Source: an uncultured Erysipelotrichaceae bacterium (GTDB lineage Bacteria; Bacillota_I; Bacilli_A; Erysipelotrichales; Erysipelotrichaceae). From it: DNA of 37,109 nucleotides. A program made the position numbers and the translations under genes. The stretch lies in NCBI GenBank assembly GCA_949289855.1, contig CASEPS010000017.1, positions 1 to 37,109 on the forward strand. The letters run 5' to 3'. Below, in pieces: positions 23,990-30,035 of this stretch. The notes beneath the pieces were generated by a model. The model was given only the letters and a program-made list of their open reading frames with translations. It searched no databases and was not told the DNA's origin. The number at the start of each line of letters is the position of its first letter. The first letter of the stretch is position 1.

Positions 23990-24898
23990 ATGAAACAATA
24001 TTTATGCATAGACATTGACAGCGGCGTCTTTCGCTATGGCATAGTGACGGAAGAGCTCGATGTCCTGGACACAGGACGTGTCACATTCCCGATTACATCC
24101 AAAGATGAATTGTTCGAACCACTGGCTGACATCTGTGAACAATATGAAGATGATGTCGAAGGTGTCAGTATTACCATGCCAGGTGTCATCGATGAGAAAA
24201 AAGGCATGGCATATAGCGGTGGTGTATTCCAATGGGTACGCAATATGGAATATGCAAGAGAAGTATCTGAAATGGTGAACATGCCGGTTGCTATTTATAA
24301 TGATGCCAAGGCAGCAGCCCTTGCGGAAATTGGTTATGGATCATTAAAAGGTATCCGCAATGGTTTTATGGTAATGATTCTTGGTGGTGGTATTGGTGGA
24401 GCACTTGTGACAGATGGTCACCTTCTTGATGGTGCCCACTATGCGGCTGGTGAGTTCTCCTACATCCGTGGTGACTACAAGGAAAGGGATGGTGACCTTG
24501 CCATGTTTGCCCGTTCCAATGGTATTGATGGATTGACCAGATGTGTAGAAGAAGAAACTGGTGTCAAGAACATGAACATCATCCGCATCATGAGCAGAAT
24601 TCAGAGTAAAGATGAAGACGTACTGCGTGGTGTAAATAAATATTGTGACAGACTTGCGACATATATTTACAATATCCAGTGCATTACGGACGCGTCCAGA
24701 GTTGTCATAGGTGGCAACATTACCGATGACCCTACGTTCTTGAAACTGATCAAGGAAGCTGTGCACAGAAGGTTTGTCAATGTGCCATACCTGAATATCT
24801 GGGAACCTGAAATTGTAGAATCAGACTTCCATTCCAATGCCCGTATGTTTGGGGCAGTCTATAATTTCCGCAGACTGATTGAACATGTAGAAGACTGA
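23990..24898 (+). CDS. ROK-family protein (sugar kinase-like) with altered phosphate loop
   Basis: The 302-residue protein has the ROK fold: an N-terminal ATP-binding strand, GVSITMPGVID, the sugar-contact and catalytic-base region NMPVAIYNDAKAAALAE (the ND pair carries the base Asp), GGGIGGALV and GGNITDD. Two points are unusual. The normal phosphate-1 loop DIGGT is here DIDSG (residues 8-12), and the ROK zinc motif CxCGxxGC is absent, as it also is in some beta-glucoside kinases. It may phosphorylate glucose or a beta-glucoside, or bind sugar without efficient catalysis. AAGGAGC is upstream of the ATG. A single gene with its own terminator; no PTS or glycosidase lies next to it. Confidence 0.85.
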   Translation: MKQYLCIDIDSGVFRYGIVTEELDVLDTGRVTFPITSKDELFEPLADICEQYEDDVEGVSITMPGVIDEKKGMAYSGGVFQWVRNMEYAREVSEMVNMPVAIYNDAKAAALAEIGYGSLKGIRNGFMVMILGGGIGGALVTDGHLLDGAHYAAGEFSYIRGDYKERDGDLAMFARSNGIDGLTRCVEEETGVKNMNIIRIMSRIQSKDEDVLRGVNKYCDRLATYIYNIQCITDASRVVIGGNITDDPTFLKLIKEAVHRRFVNVPYLNIWEPEIVESDFHSNARMFGAVYNFRRLIEHVED

Positions 24899-24900
24899 TG

Positions 24901-24931
24901 AACAGTGGCAGATATCTGCCACTGTTTTGTT
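24901..24931 (+). terminator. Intrinsic terminator of the ROK gene
   Basis: AACAGTGGCAG-ATAT-CTGCCACTGTT, a perfect 11-base-pair stem, followed by TTGTT. Being a perfect palindrome it could act both ways. Confidence 0.85.
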
Positions 24932-24953
24932 GTCTGTCGCTTAAATGTGCATT

Positions 24954-24982
24954 TTGTCGGATGCTTTCACCTTATTTACATT
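24954..24982 (+). promoter_or_regulatory. Likely promoter of the WG-lipoprotein pair
   Basis: TTGTCG (24954-24959), 17 bases, TACATT (24977-24982); 41 bases before the first ATG. Confidence 0.55.
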
Positions 24983-25023
24983 GTCATAGTATTCTGAAGG
25001 CAGTAAGAGAGAGGACAAAATAT

Positions 25024-27276
25024 ATGAGCAGGAAAGACAGAATAAATGGACTTATAATCAGTTTTCTCTGTATGACACTTGCAGGATGTACATTATCCGC
25101 ACCAGTGACAGAAGAAACAGAAGCAGTTCCTGTTACACAAGAAGAGATCAAAGAAGTTATCTGGGCAGTTGATCCTGATGAAGGACTCTTTGATAGCTAT
25201 GAAGAGGTAACCATTCTCAATGGCATGATTGATCAGGGGTTTGAAACAATCAATGGAGTAAAAGGTTATCCTTCTCAATGGGCATCAAAGGATTACAGTG
25301 GCAATGTCTTAAAAGTGAAACAGAATAGCAAGTATAATCTCATTGACTACTATGGAGACAAGCTGCTGGATGAATTCAGAACTTATATTGGTAATCCGGC
25401 ATATGTAGCATTTTCAGAAGATAATTACATCTATAGTGGTGATAAAATTCTTGAAACAGTTATTTTGACCTCAGATACAGAACCGCGTCATCAAGAAAAT
25501 TCATCCTATAAAGATACTATAGAGCTGAGCGAATTAGATGCTGGATTTAATGAAGTTTATACTGGTCTTACTTGGCAGAACGGTGAACCGCAGGCAAATG
25601 ATACAACATGGTATGTAGAAGGAGAAACCATCTATGAGGTAAAGGGGGATGGTAGTAAGCTGCCTGTTACACAGATTTCCGCAGCATATAACGCGCAAAG
25701 CGATTATCTCATTCCAAAGAGGGAGGGAGATAAATTATTGGGATATGTTGCAATAGAAAATGGAACTGCTATTAAGCCGCTGATTCCATATCAGCCTACA
25801 GGCATCATGGTGAATGGCATTGTTGCAGTAGAAGAAAATCTTTCGCAAAGTACTACCTATAGTCGCAATATGAGTGATGAACAGGTTAACCAGGGAATTA
25901 TGGCAGAAGGAAATAATCTTGGTGTTTATAATGCCTATGATGGTGAATTACTTTCTGATTTTGTCTATGACGCAATTGGTGCCTGTGAAGAAGGGTATGT
26001 ACCTGTAAGACAAAATGGAAAATGGGGATTATTGGACATAGAAAGCAAAGAGATGGTCATTCCTTGTATTCTGAATGCAATTTCTACGGTTTATGGTGGA
26101 ATGGTTTATGTGGATACAGGAGAAGGAAGAGGTGTTCTTGATCTTGAAGAAACACTTGCGGAAGGAATCAGCATCACAATGGGAAGTCTTACCGGAAAGT
26201 ACTCCGATCACATTGAGACACTGTTCAATAAGATTGAAGGCCTGGAAGGTAAGGGAATATATGAGATTATTGCGCTTCCATATCGTACCTATTGGGGTTC
26301 TGCAATGGAGACAATGGAATTCAAAGGGAATTGTATGACATGGGATGAGAAACCATATAATCCCGATACGGCAATGTTAATTGGACATGACCATAGTTAT
26401 TGGTTATATGGGACAGACGGCAAACGGATCAATAATGTGACATATGAATACTTTAATGTAATTCTCAATTTGCGTGGTGGTCTGAATGACTTGGGTTCCG
26501 ACAGTCCATATCATTATCTGGATCAAAACCTACAACCAACAGGCAATCATACAGATACTAATTTTTCTGTAATAGGCGATACTTTGTCATTGAATATGTA
26601 TCAGGGCATTTTCCCGGAAGGCAGAAAACACCGCTATGTGCATTGTGAATATATAACAGAAGATCCAGTGAAAGAGCCTTGGCCATATCTTTATACAGGG
26701 AACAACTGGCTTATGGATGAAGACAAAAATAGGACGATTGATGTTGGACCACTCGTAGATACAAACCCGCTCAGCTTTGATCCGGATTATCTTTATAAAC
26801 GTCATTTTGGACCAGTATTTGTTAATGGATTCATTACTGTTGGTAATCCTGATGAAATCCATTCAGATAAGCCAAAGGAATATCACCACCTGTACGATCC
26901 AGATATCTCTTCAAAATTTGAGGATGAATATTTTGAAAGCGAAATTCCAGCAGTAGAACATGTAGCCTTCCTCAATGCGGATACCGGGGAACAATCACCA
27001 TATTATGAAAATGCAAAGTGGTTCCAGGAAGGTATAGCACCTGTGAAACTGAATGATAAATGGGGTTACATCAATACCGATTATGAGGTAGTTGTGCCAT
27101 TTGTCTTTGACAGTGCATCGGTATGTGGAAGTGGAAAGGTCATCTTGGAAGTGCAGGGTAAGTATTATTCATTTGATCTTGCTTATGCAATGAATAATGG
27201 GGCAGATCTTTCAGAAGAAGGATTGAATAATTGGATATCAAATCTTGAAAAGGAGAGTGTGGGAAATGAAAAGTAA
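25024..27276 (+). CDS. WG-repeat lipoprotein, 750 residues
   Basis: An upstream in-frame extension exists, but AGAGGA about 8 bases before ATG at 25024 and the lipoprotein signal right after it (membrane stretch, LAGC, Cys22) fix the start. The mature protein is secreted and lipid-anchored. At least two WG (Trp-Gly) repeat units can be read: NGKWGLLDIESKEMVIPC near residue 332 and NDKWGYINTDYEVVVPFVF near 680, each preceded by an EGYVPV or EGIAPV strand. WG repeats form beta-rich scaffolds of unknown binding role. About residues 45-100 (IWAVDPDEGLFD..., GYPSQWAS) and 300-390 are clearly shared with the next gene, so the two arose by duplication. This copy has an extra C-terminal part of about 350 residues. 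The genes look more AT-rich than their neighbours by eye. Function is unknown. Confidence 0.85.
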   Translation: MSRKDRINGLIISFLCMTLAGCTLSAPVTEETEAVPVTQEEIKEVIWAVDPDEGLFDSYEEVTILNGMIDQGFETINGVKGYPSQWASKDYSGNVLKVKQNSKYNLIDYYGDKLLDEFRTYIGNPAYVAFSEDNYIYSGDKILETVILTSDTEPRHQENSSYKDTIELSELDAGFNEVYTGLTWQNGEPQANDTTWYVEGETIYEVKGDGSKLPVTQISAAYNAQSDYLIPKREGDKLLGYVAIENGTAIKPLIPYQPTGIMVNGIVAVEENLSQSTTYSRNMSDEQVNQGIMAEGNNLGVYNAYDGELLSDFVYDAIGACEEGYVPVRQNGKWGLLDIESKEMVIPCILNAISTVYGGMVYVDTGEGRGVLDLEETLAEGISITMGSLTGKYSDHIETLFNKIEGLEGKGIYEIIALPYRTYWGSAMETMEFKGNCMTWDEKPYNPDTAMLIGHDHSYWLYGTDGKRINNVTYEYFNVILNLRGGLNDLGSDSPYHYLDQNLQPTGNHTDTNFSVIGDTLSLNMYQGIFPEGRKHRYVHCEYITEDPVKEPWPYLYTGNNWLMDEDKNRTIDVGPLVDTNPLSFDPDYLYKRHFGPVFVNGFITVGNPDEIHSDKPKEYHHLYDPDISSKFEDEYFESEIPAVEHVAFLNADTGEQSPYYENAKWFQEGIAPVKLNDKWGYINTDYEVVVPFVFDSASVCGSGKVILEVQGKYYSFDLAYAMNNGADLSEEGLNNWISNLEKESVGNEK

Positions 27277-28486
27277 AGGTACGAGAAAATTGTTTGTTGC
27301 ACTGATCAGTGTTGCGACATTGTGTGGATGTAGAAGTGCTGCTCAACCAGCAGAAACACCAAAATCTACGCATGTAATCTGGACAGTCAGTCCGGAAGAA
27401 GGCGTGTTTGATGCGGCAGAAGATGTGCAGATTCTCAATGGTGCAGTGGATTGGTTCTTCATGTCATATAGAGGATTGATTGGTTATCCATCTCAATGGG
27501 CAAGTGAAGCATATAGCCCTGATGTATTAAAAGTGCAGATGAATGGTGAATATACATTGTATACATATGAAGGTGAACGATTGTTTGAAGATACATATAA
27601 GTGCATCGGAAATTATATGGGACCGCAGGGAATCATGGATACGTCCAACAGATATCCATTTGAGCGGATTTCTGTATCAGATGATGTATTGCTCAGATGG
27701 ATAGATAGTGATACAGAGGGAACAGAACCGTATGTAGACTTTAATGTTCTGAGTGAAGATTATCGATCGATTAAAGAAGAGTATCTGCACGCTCCCCAAT
27801 ATGGTGATCTAGGGGTATTGCCGAAAGTTAATTTCATACAGGGGAAAGATCAATTAGAAGATAGCAATGGAAAAACATATTCTGTAGCAGAAGCTGAAGA
27901 TAGCATTTACACTACAAATGGATATGATCTCAGAACTCCACTTGATTATGTATTCCCAGTCGAAAATGAAAATGAGGAAACGGTTGCTTACCGTGTTATC
28001 CGTAATGATGGCACGGTTGGTGAAGAAATTCCTAATGAAGTTGCGGGCGTTATGATCAATGGGGTATTGCCAGTATTTAATAGAACACCAGATGCGAATA
28101 GTGAGGGTTATGGTTCAAGAAATAACAAAGGAGACCTTTATGGTGTTGGTACAGCAGCTGAAGGTTCTGCTATCGGTTTGTACAATGCATACACAGATGA
28201 AATGATCAGTGACTTTGCCTATGAAGCTGTTGGTGTAACTGAAGAAGGTTATGTGCCTGTGAAAGAAGCTGGTAAGTGGGGATTGTATAGTATTGAAAAT
28301 AAGACACTGGTTATTCCCTGTATCCTGGATGATATTACCAGTGTTTATAATGGCATGGTTTATATAGAGATCGATGGCAGAAAAGGTGTGCTGAACCTTG
28401 GTGAAACATTGGCTGCTGGTGTTGAAATCAATGAGGAAACGCTGGCAGAAGTAGTGGTGGAAGAAACTGCTGCACCTGAGGTATAA
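27266..28486 (+). CDS. WG-repeat lipoprotein paralogue, 406 residues
   Basis: The start at ATG 27266 overlaps the end of the previous gene by 11 bases and follows AAAGGAGAG. The lipoprotein signal ends ATLCGC with Cys22, the same position as in the paralogue. Residues 45-100 (IWTVSPEEGVFD..., GYPSQWAS) and about 310-390 (SDFAYEAVGVTEEGYVPV, GKWGLYSIENKTLVIPC, GMVYIEIDGRKGVLNL) match the first protein closely. It stops about where the extra C-terminal half of the larger copy begins. It ends in an acidic ...VVVEETAAPEV tail. No T-rich terminator for this strand follows. The two probably form a surface complex or recognise related ligands; neither is shown. Confidence 0.83.
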   Translation: MKSKGTRKLFVALISVATLCGCRSAAQPAETPKSTHVIWTVSPEEGVFDAAEDVQILNGAVDWFFMSYRGLIGYPSQWASEAYSPDVLKVQMNGEYTLYTYEGERLFEDTYKCIGNYMGPQGIMDTSNRYPFERISVSDDVLLRWIDSDTEGTEPYVDFNVLSEDYRSIKEEYLHAPQYGDLGVLPKVNFIQGKDQLEDSNGKTYSVAEAEDSIYTTNGYDLRTPLDYVFPVENENEETVAYRVIRNDGTVGEEIPNEVAGVMINGVLPVFNRTPDANSEGYGSRNNKGDLYGVGTAAEGSAIGLYNAYTDEMISDFAYEAVGVTEEGYVPVKEAGKWGLYSIENKTLVIPCILDDITSVYNGMVYIEIDGRKGVLNLGETLAAGVEINEETLAEVVVEETAAPEV

Positions 28487-28511
28487 AAAAAGGCAATTCT
28501 TTCTGAATTGC
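28484..28511 (-). terminator. Hairpin with U tract readable on the minus strand
   Basis: GCAATTC (28493-28499) and GAATTGC (28505-28511) pair around TTTCT. On the plus strand no T tract follows. On the minus strand it is followed by CCTTTTTTTAT, the form of an intrinsic terminator. No minus-strand gene is visible to its right. Confidence 0.55.
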
Positions 28512-28584
28512 TCCCAACAAATACATAATAGCTGAAAAAAATTTTGATTACAAGACTGGTAAAACCCCTTGTACAAGCTATTAT

Positions 28585-29370
28585 ATAAGTGCAAAGAGAA
28601 ATACACAGAACCAAAGCAAAAAAGAAAAGGACAAGGGTCGAAGGGGACCGGGAGGTATCCAATGAAACCAGGAATTTACGAAGGCAGGTAACCAAACCTG
28701 CAAAGACAATTGAATTCAATTCTGTAATCCAAAACAGCATTGGGCAAAAGAAAACCTGAACTATGATCTCCATAGATGATGTCGTGAGATATCATTAAAA
28801 GATCAGTAAGGGGAAAGATTACTGATTCAGATGAGAAGAATTCTGGAATGGAAAAGAGAATATTGAATTCTGTGGAATGAATCTGCTGAAGTAGAGATAA
28901 CCAATCATGAATTAAGTAAGCAGAAAAAGTAAGGAAACAGAAAAGAGATAAGATCTTAACAGAAAGAATTTGAAACAAAAGAGATCAGCTGGTGGAAATC
29001 CGGAAAACAACTGAATGATCAGAAATGATCAACAGAAAGAATCATGAACAACATACATTTAAATAATAGAATGTATGGAAAGGAATGATGAAATGAACGG
29101 ATGGAAACAAATGATGACAAAGTAATCAGCCAGAGTAAAGCAGATGAAACGAAATCAGGAAACGAAAAGCTGAAGTAAAAAACAGAAGATCGTAAGGCAG
29201 ATAGATCAGGTAAATCAACCTGTTGAAATAGCAGTGAAAATACGTTGGTGAAAGCAACGGACAACAAGTGTAAATAGCTCGTTAGATGTCGATAGTTCTC
29301 AGTTCAAAGCTGATAAGGATACAGAATGAATAACAGGAAGCTGGCATGGATTGCCGGCTTTCTTTCTGTT
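28585..29370 (+). ncRNA. Candidate large structured noncoding RNA (about 700-790 nt)
   Basis: The region has no credible gene on either strand; the plus strand is strongly purine-rich with some two dozen GAAA stretches. Perfect or near-perfect hairpins can be read one after another: 28684-28701 (GCAGGT/ACCTGC), 28761-28775, 28776-28795 (GTGA loop), 28802-28826 (8 pairs), 28837-28871 (outer AGAATTC/GAATTCT), 28882-28924, 29017-29030 (GATCA-GAAA-TGATC), 29052-29077 (CATACATT/AATGTATG, inside ATCAT 29041/ATGAT 29085), 29207-29222 and 29243-29259. GTATCC (28655-28660) can pair with GGATAC (29317-29322), closing most of the molecule. It ends in tandem terminators. TATTATATAA at 28579-28588 is a possible -10 but no good -35 is seen, so the 5' end is a guess. 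Size and style recall ROOL, GOLLD or OLE RNAs; I cannot assign a family. Confidence 0.65.
29332..29370 (+). terminator. First of two tandem terminators after the candidate RNA
   Basis: AAGCTGGCA (29338-29346) pairs with TGCCGGCTT (29352-29360), one wobble, followed by TCTTTCTGTT. Flanking AACAG and CTGTT can extend the pairing. Confidence 0.82.
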
Positions 29371-29375
29371 AAGGG

Positions 29376-29394
29376 GAGTGAAAACACTCTTTTT
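29376..29394 (+). terminator. Second tandem terminator
   Basis: GAGTG-AAAA-CACTC and five T, starting 6 bases after the first terminator. It insulates the DJ-1 gene from the upstream transcript. Confidence 0.7.
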
Positions 29395-29409
29395 GAGATT
29401 CTGAATGGA

Positions 29410-29418
29410 TGCTATAAT
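29410..29418 (+). promoter_or_regulatory. Extended -10 promoter element for the DJ-1 operon
   Basis: TGCTATAAT, a consensus extended -10, 57 bases before the DJ-1 start and after both terminators. No strong -35. Confidence 0.5.
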
Positions 29419-29474
29419 GCTGAGGTAGAAGAACATCTTTTTATCATGGATGTGTCTTTAGACAGGAGTATACA

Positions 29475-30035
29475 ATGAAGTGTCTGATATATCTTGCGGA
29501 AGGTTTTGAAGAATGTGAAGCATTGATTACAGTGGATCTGTTGAGACGTGGTGGAATGACAATTGATATGGTTTCCATCACGGATGAAAAGCTTGTGAGA
29601 TCTTCTCATCAGGTTGGCATCATGGCGGATTATGTGCTGAAGGAAGTAGATCCATGCGACTATGATGTATTGATTATGCCAGGCGGAAAACTTGGTACAA
29701 GCAATCTTGAGGCATGTTCTGCTGTAACAGAAGCGATGAAGAAACATTTTGAGGCTGGAAAGCTGACATGTGCAATTTGTGCTGCACCATCTATTCTTGG
29801 TCACCTTGGCATTCTCAATGGAAAAAAGTATACATGTTTCCCAGGCTTCGATGATGAGAGCTATGGTGGAGATTATCAGATGAAGCTTGCAGTCAAAGAT
29901 GGAAATGTCATTACTGGCAGGGGGATGGGTGCTACGATTGAGTTTGCCCGTGAAATTCTCAAGACAGCTCTGAATGAAGAGGAGATGAAAGCTGTCGAGA
30001 ATGGTATCCAGTATGAACATACATTTGATAAATGA
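29475..30035 (+). CDS. DJ-1/PfpI-family protein
   Basis: The 186-residue protein is of the DJ-1/ThiJ group. The nucleophile-elbow cysteine is Cys102 in CAICAAPSILG, and Glu15 in EGFEECEA matches the conserved glutamate that lowers its pKa. PGG (69-71) and GATIEFA near the C-terminus complete the family pattern. Members are proposed glyoxalase III, deglycase or redox-protection enzymes; which activity applies here is unclear. AGGAG precedes the ATG. It is the first gene of a run ending at 34929, with 37 bases before the hydrogenase gene, so a role in protecting metabolism or redox balance fits the context. Confidence 0.9.
   Translation: MKCLIYLAEGFEECEALITVDLLRRGGMTIDMVSITDEKLVRSSHQVGIMADYVLKEVDPCDYDVLIMPGGKLGTSNLEACSAVTEAMKKHFEAGKLTCAICAAPSILGHLGILNGKKYTCFPGFDDESYGGDYQMKLAVKDGNVITGRGMGATIEFAREILKTALNEEEMKAVENGIQYEHTFDK

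Follow-up and report, generated by a model that had tools for sequence, protein, structure and literature searches.

A putative ~780-nt structured RNA with a conserved nine-codon micro-ORF in an uncultured Erysipelotrichaceae bacterium

What is encoded in the nearly 1 kb that separates a WG-repeat protein gene (ending at 28486) from a DJ-1/PfpI gene (starting at 29475) in an uncultured Erysipelotrichaceae bacterium? The window, i.e., the whole 37,109-nt stretch of DNA analysed (contig CASEPS010000017.1 of assembly GCA_949289855.1), contained no ORF with a Pfam match between these two genes, and the minus-strand ORFs of 82 to 137 aa in 28487–29474 were likewise without a Pfam match. Two overlapping WG-repeat protein genes (24898–27276 and 27245–28486) were located upstream. 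The initial annotation had read the interval as a giant structured RNA with no credible reading frame; this held for Pfam-matching ORFs, but a Shine-Dalgarno (SD)-led micro-ORF at 28662–28691 had been overlooked (see below). The plus-strand purine bias it had pointed out was borne out: 28592–29337 was 68.1% purine, exceeding all 728 sliding 746-nt segments of the 37-kb region (mean 54.0%, sd 3.6). The predicted plus-strand fold of 28590–29370 reached −178.5 kcal/mol versus −136.1 ± 7.8 in 20 dinucleotide shuffles (z −5.4), and the minus-strand fold gave a z of −2.95 by the same procedure. The RNA was placed within narrower limits than 28487–29474, namely about 28592–29370, because 28492–28591 corresponded to a promoter plus a minus-strand terminator and 29395–29474 to the promoter/leader of DJ-1. 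The predicted features were as follows:

28493..28511, minus strand: intrinsic terminator of a minus-strand transcript (7-pair stem, T-run), just upstream of the RNA promoter
28513..28601, plus strand: promoter element of ~90 nt with nearly fixed spacing (model R3, 23-copy alignment), composed of CCCAACA, A-tract GAAAAAAATTTT (28534–28545), AGACTG box (in 28552–28559), −10 TATTAT (28579–28584), and start region AAAGAGAAA
28525..28553, minus strand: sigma-70-like promoter (TTGTAA-17-TATTAT) lying divergently within the element
28592..29370, plus strand: structured RNA with homologues (the −10 and terminator 1 giving its inferred start and end)
28650..28655, plus strand: SD of the micro-ORF, GGGAGG
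28662..28691, plus strand: micro-ORF, ATG AAA CCA GGA ATT TAC GAA GGC AGG TAA = MKPGIYEGR*
28684..28701, plus strand: hairpin GCAGGU...ACCUGC, overlapping the micro-ORF end
28717..28836, plus strand: conserved core (covariance model R2), UUCUG ... UCCAUA-P2-UUAAAA-P3-CAGAUG
28776..28795, plus strand: core hairpin P2, AUGAUGUC-GUGA-GAUAUCAU (window arms AUGAU/AUCAU)
28801..28827, plus strand: core hairpin P3, GAUCAGUAA...UUACUGAUU
29052..29077, plus strand: hairpin in the less conserved body, CAUACAUU...AAUGUAUG
29317..29329, plus strand: 3′ motif GGAUACAGAAUGA, corresponding to GGACACAGAUGA in relatives
29335..29363, plus strand: intrinsic terminator 1 (terminator scan; 12-pair stem, U-run)
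29373..29394, plus strand: second terminator-like hairpin, preceding the DJ-1 TATAAT
29475..30035, plus strand: DJ-1/PfpI gene, a frequent right-hand neighbour without being a fixed partner

In the promoter element, TATWWT occupied the plus −10, the AGACTG box lay about 20 nt further upstream, and the A-tract was at the UP-element position upstream of the −35 region. The 23 promoter copies, taken from all classes of the RNA (see below), aligned with hardly any internal gaps, so that this 5′ element points to a DNA element. A candidate stem between TAATAGCT and AGCTATTA was rejected because the element aligned almost gapless and the arms did not covary; these two segments were −10 hexamers in opposite orientation. 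Model R3, a sequence-only promoter model, matched 65 of the 70 genus genomes (39 of the 41 good ones), mostly at one to three loci per genome. The minus −10 columns were invariant in the 23-copy alignment (TATnnT), R3 also matched on the reverse strand, and an inverted repeat after A-runs stood at the position of 28493–28511 in many relatives; the divergent promoter plus terminator (28493–28553) would predict a minus-strand RNA of ~30 nt. This divergent arrangement recurred upstream of many related RNA genes. The Dps loci L006 and L016 had only the −10/start region in common with the element and were rejected as family members. TATTATATAAGTGCAAAGAGAAA was common to the RNA promoter and the promoters of two Dps-like genes, L043 (G055:C72:141-164) and L044 (G055:C48:8747-8770), a hint that they may share a regulon or a signal in the start region.

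At the opposite end, the terminator scan of the region found three terminators versus 0.5 expected, one of them on the plus strand. The initial annotation had placed two tandem intrinsic terminators here: 29335–29363 was called, and 29373–29394, visible in the sequence, went uncalled by the scan. The DJ-1 gene had its own separate TATAAT at 29413–29418. The claim of a large structured RNA in an ordinary chromosomal position was sustained, with a predicted transcription unit of its own.

Known RNA families were searched by cmscan with all 4227 Rfam models, at gathering thresholds and at permissive E-values. At gathering thresholds, the whole window matched three tRNAs only; at E ≤ 10, region 28300–29600 gave chance-level small families only; the loci of 20 relatives gave, at E ≤ 1, tRNA and chance-level small families only; and homologous loci from 37 sources gave tRNAs plus chance-level small families and nothing else. 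The annotators had suggested a divergent ROOL or GOLLD member or a new class, together with a cmscan check against ROOL, GOLLD, and OLE. None of these models matched: ROOL in the window (gathering thresholds and E ≤ 10) or in the 20 relatives' loci (E ≤ 1), GOLLD and OLE in the window and relatives. The RNA was accordingly not assigned to ROOL, GOLLD, or OLE, and only the new-class half of the suggestion stood: the predicted RNA is of a class not represented in Rfam. ROOL is encoded in phages and prophages, often near tRNA islands (PMC12286853); the window RNA had ordinary chromosomal neighbours with the tRNAs 12 kb away, and its core pattern was absent from 2.9 million viral contigs. A divergent member of one of these three families, which size, purine bias, and hairpin number would allow, is therefore very improbable given the failed matches at permissive thresholds, the lack of an adjoining tRNA island, and the viral result.

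blastn located the conserved 5′ element at a second site in the genome of the window and in about ten other genomes of its genus. Relatives were also sought in the DNA upstream of DJ-1 orthologues across the genus, and about half of these orthologues had an upstream gap of 500 to 1000 nt in which a relative of the window RNA could be recognised. Two classes could be distinguished there: class A with a PGI-type micro-ORF (see below) and class C, without one but sharing a strongly conserved body; three A/C hybrids (G025 = L118, G016 = L155, and G040 = L156) indicated that classes A and C were one family. The window was linked to its relatives independently by blastn matches to G033 and G056 and by the A/C hybrids, and a full-length alignment of the body (~28840–29300) with one relative, G056, gave 60% identity. 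RNA relatives were also present in Erysipelotrichaceae bacterium NK3D112 (JNJQ01000005.1) and in several Erysipelotrichaceae MAGs including RUG11122 and RUG12097. NK3D112 had a class C RNA as well as the sister RNA described below; JNJQ01000005.1 designates it as a single strain, and cultured carriers thus appear to exist. Four matches lacking flanking features, L011 (G084) and the R2 matches in G028:C127, G045, and G055:C53, were chance-like and were rejected as members. Core-pattern matches in contigs of Bacteroidia, Spirochaetales, Synergistales, and Planctomycetota were likewise rejected, being at chance level or close to it, with R2 scores no higher than 20.6 bits.

The flanking genes varied by species (DJ-1, DUF1349, sulfatase, HTH, transglutaminase, P-type ATPase, and MarR). 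Some family members sat away from DJ-1, beside a DUF1349, sulfatase, or HTH/RCC1 protein, and the RNA was thus not tied to DJ-1. Since neighbours changed between species, the adjoining surface lipoproteins, initially regarded as meaningful context, were incidental. Conserved predicted promoter and terminator together with varying neighbours are what a free-standing dual-function small RNA (sRNA) gene would display. The homologous gaps carried related RNAs with covarying stems instead of decayed protein genes. That the stretch is a decayed protein gene or chance-rich intergenic DNA would agree with the absence of a long ORF; this reading is hardly credible given that promoter, core, micro-ORF, terminators, and synteny were conserved across many species and that the gap contained no matching protein gene in any relative examined.

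With a cut-off of E ≤ 0.01, the core model R2 matched 18 of the 70 genus genomes, and a few of these matches were chance-like; the model was trained on eight sequences with the window among them, and so the window's own R2 score is not independent evidence. Outside the genus, R2 had two weak matches in the order, and R1, a model of the 3′ domain (see below), had none. With arms picked by hand, the arms of P2 paired at 100% with their own partners and at 49% when swapped between species, and those of P3 at 100% and 69%, respectively. By this measure, P2 and P3 covary across species, window included, the sequence being fully changed and the pairing kept. The structural details named initially were confirmed: (i) the stem at 28802–28826, with nine pairs (28801–28827) instead of eight; (ii) the stem at 29052–29077; (iii) the GNRA-type loops GUGA at 28784–28787 and GAAA at 29022–29025; and (iv) the possible closing pair, present as GUAUCC/GGAUAC at 28655–28660/29317–29322. 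In the last case, the first six bases of GGAUACAGAAUGA can pair with 28655–28660, beside the SD; a corresponding SD-to-3′-end pair was seen by eye in G033 (one G-U) and in G002 and G048 (GUUCC/GGAAC), but it was missing in G056 and G031, and it is only suggestive as a real feature. One locus, L118 (G025:C17), contained an A-rich insertion of ~430 nt between apparent P2 arms (AUGAUG...CAUCAU).

Model R1 described a covarying hairpin found in 12 genomes at E ≤ 0.001, with 94.4% of cells paired, double changes in four of six pairs, and a covariation score of 0.310 versus 0.134 in shuffles (reached by 0 of 500 shuffles). Its loop was a 6-nt palindrome varying by species: GUGCAC, GCGCGC, GCUAGC, or GCAUGC (G031). 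The window counterpart of this loop had no 6-nt palindrome, its best match UAGCUC not being self-complementary over six bases. In OLE L9.3 and GOLLD L21a, loops that switch between palindromes have served as the argument for contacts between RNA molecules (PMC12286853). The same switching makes dimer formation a reasonable inference for the relatives carrying it, and it suggests RNA dimers in those relatives; no such claim is made for the window copy.

The micro-ORF overlooked before encodes MKPGIYEGR (nine codons), which belonged to an M[K/R]xPGI set, and its conservation means that the RNA is not simply non-coding. Among 66 promoter-located loci chosen without a peptide criterion, an SD-ATG-stop arrangement of 5 to 14 codons was found in 89% versus 9.4% in shuffled downstream sequence; 43 loci were of MK-[K/E]-[V/I]-LL type (class B; see below), and 14 including the window were of PGI type. 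The M[K/R]xPGI start pattern occurred in 27 of 311 order genomes from six genera, and the reversed control pattern in none. Outside the genus, 12 of 13 distinct sequences had MKGPGI with codon 3 unconstrained, these being reads of the starts with the stop codons unseen, and the PGI third codon positions varied freely (GGA/GGT, CCA/CCT/CCC/CCG, and GGA/GGT/GGC). PGI modules could also be arranged in tandem, with three in G034. The hairpin after the micro-ORF was present in most class A relatives, its stem being changed in G034 (GUAGCU/AGCUAC) and G025 (GGCGGU/ACCGCC). Class C relatives kept the body and lost the PGI micro-ORF: the peptide is therefore not needed everywhere, and a covarying body kept without it argues that the RNA matters by itself. 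In the RNA body of a sub-class upstream of DJ-1 (L086, L102, L104, and L106), ACCUCCUUAUCACC was invariant; this sequence was the complement of the SD of the micro-ORF itself and resembled the 3′ end of 16S rRNA.

The body might alternatively be all that counts, as in a purely structural RNA of the ornate type with a homo-oligomeric body, in which the micro-ORF would serve only for ribosome loading or stabilisation. The size, the strong fold, the A-rich linkers, and retention of the body in class C agree with this, as does a loop that changes in the relatives yet stays palindromic, as argued for OLE L9.3 and GOLLD (PMC12286853). Such a reading is nevertheless unlikely: the micro-ORF was conserved in its amino acids rather than its bases, Rfam gave no match, and the palindrome was not evident in the window copy.

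Class B was a sister RNA with the same promoter type and an eight-residue peptide MK[K/E]VLL[E/N]Y; one promoter type is thus predicted to drive two sister RNA classes. The genome of the window had one class B copy (G000:C34:540-690; L026, L002), which encoded MKKVLLEY, adjoined a MarR-family gene, and had its SD in a GUACC/GGUAC stem. Across class B, the SD arm had an exact 5-nt upstream complement in 18 of 41 loci versus 0% with upstream parts swapped, and other loci displayed compensated versions of the SD stem, e.g., GAGAC/GUCUC. Close pairs of promoter-located class B loci had 88% synonymous changes versus 38% expected, and a larger set, selected by residue, had 82% versus 37%. MK[K/E][V/I]LL[E/N]Y was found in 64 of 316 order genomes from eight genera of the family, with none for the reversed control; class B loci fetched from other genera had the same promoter, the same stop, and a hairpin directly after the stop, and most of them had the downstream motif CC(A/G)AUGGAC. 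A draw of 277 class genomes gave a single class B match beyond the order, at the start of an ordinary protein; viral and class-level matches to the class B pattern were rejected as N-termini of ordinary longer proteins with no early stop. Tandem MK modules numbered two or three in several genus genomes and four in G254. In class B loci such as L182, L303, and L307, there was a second SD-AUG (GAGG-n-CC[A/G]AUGGAC) opening an ORF of 3 to 10 codons; the start of this second mini-ORF (AUGGAC...) was conserved, and the residues after M-D varied. The codon-level conservation and synonymous excess are consistent with the conserved short ORF expected of a dual-function sRNA.

Micro-ORFs of 7 to 10 codons directly followed by a hairpin also call to mind ribosome stalling on the erm, msr, or cat leader peptides. 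In the main rival to a dual-function RNA, the micro-ORF would be a cis-acting sensor: a ribosome stalled or slowed on 7 to 9 codons would decide which hairpins form and hence whether the body is completed or active, and the released peptide would have no function. In the sister RNA the SD is part of a covarying stem, and in the micro-ORFs residue identity is conserved as far as the final sense codon or to within one or two codons of it; both agree with a sensor. An attenuating leader precedes a constant downstream gene on the same transcript, but here the right-hand neighbours were unrelated and differed, with a terminator and a separate promoter intervening, and up to four tandem copies of the same micro-ORF would be superfluous for a switch. 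We regard the sensor as possible and rather doubtful.

A free-standing gene for a ~780-nt structured dual-function RNA is, on balance, the probable explanation of the locus. By sequence, it combines a common promoter, terminators, micro-ORF conservation, covarying stems, and no fixed neighbour gene; with no conserved downstream gene, it looks like a free-standing dual-function RNA, and the conserved residues and tandem micro-ORFs, with no downstream gene to regulate, speak for a peptide that matters as a product. The RNA would be made from its own promoter, with an A-tract upstream of the −35 region and of a type common to the sister RNA; ribosomes would bind at an SD placed amid RNA structure; and translation would yield a very short conserved peptide, MKPGIYEGR here and MKGPGI in other genera. 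The RNA would fold into a conserved body with a closed P2/P3 core, the 3′ motif, and the terminator, which in many relatives would bear a palindromic loop suited to RNA-RNA dimers, and a promoter of this type would also yield the sister RNA, with MKKVLLEY as its peptide. The RNA would presumably be abundant, the peptide would be made and would matter as a product, the body would dimerise, and micro-ORF translation would be coupled to body folding. A type I toxin-antitoxin RNA, which pairs a hydrophobic membrane peptide with an overlapping antisense RNA, was rejected, as MKPGIYEGR and MKKVLLEY were too short and too polar for a transmembrane segment and the minus-strand promoter read away from the RNA.

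A wider proposal, tentative and short of an even chance, is a two-RNA system of Erysipelotrichaceae, in which co-regulated large structured RNAs would deliver MKGPGI- and MKKVLLEY-type peptides ready-sized from tandem micro-ORF modules, without precursor processing, and the body would homodimerise via the palindromic loop. If true, it would be a dual-function RNA class without known precedent. The promoter element was found in nearly every genome of a large rumen/gut genus, and the micro-ORFs in at least six (PGI) and at least eight (MK) genera of the family. ORFs of 7 to 9 codons fall below the limit of gene finders, and conserved micro-peptides in structured RNAs may therefore be a general blind spot. 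In the openly licensed papers searched, neither peptide sequences of MKPGIYEGR or MKKVLLEY type nor a description matching this RNA was found; an earlier report elsewhere is possible.

Compared to ROOL, GOLLD, and OLE, the window RNA had a similarly large size, many hairpins, and A-rich linkers, and the covariation of a self-complementary loop reported for OLE L9.3 (PMC12286853) resembles that in its relatives, but it differed in its unmatched covariance models, in the phage or tRNA-island context not found here, in its conserved micro-ORF, and in a taxonomic range that did not, as far as tested, extend beyond one bacterial family. Like leader-peptide attenuators and uORFs, it had a hairpin placed after a short SD-led ORF whose residues were conserved; it differed from them in having no regulated downstream gene, a terminator plus a new promoter intervening. 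The HIV-1 dimerisation initiation site has a hairpin loop with a GCGCGC or GUGCAC palindrome; it shares with the relatives of the window RNA a loop principle only, with no homology, and such a loop was found in those relatives and was not evident in the window copy. The dual-function sRNAs SgrS/SgrT, RNAIII/delta-haemolysin, and SR1/SR1P have their own promoter and terminator, a structured RNA, and a short ORF, with peptides of 26 to 43 residues. The window RNA family is like them in own promoter/terminator and in structured RNA plus short ORF; no sequence relationship to them was found, and it differs in having (i) peptides of 7 to 10 residues instead of 26 to 43, (ii) tandem micro-ORF arrays, and (iii) one promoter type for two sister RNAs with different peptides.
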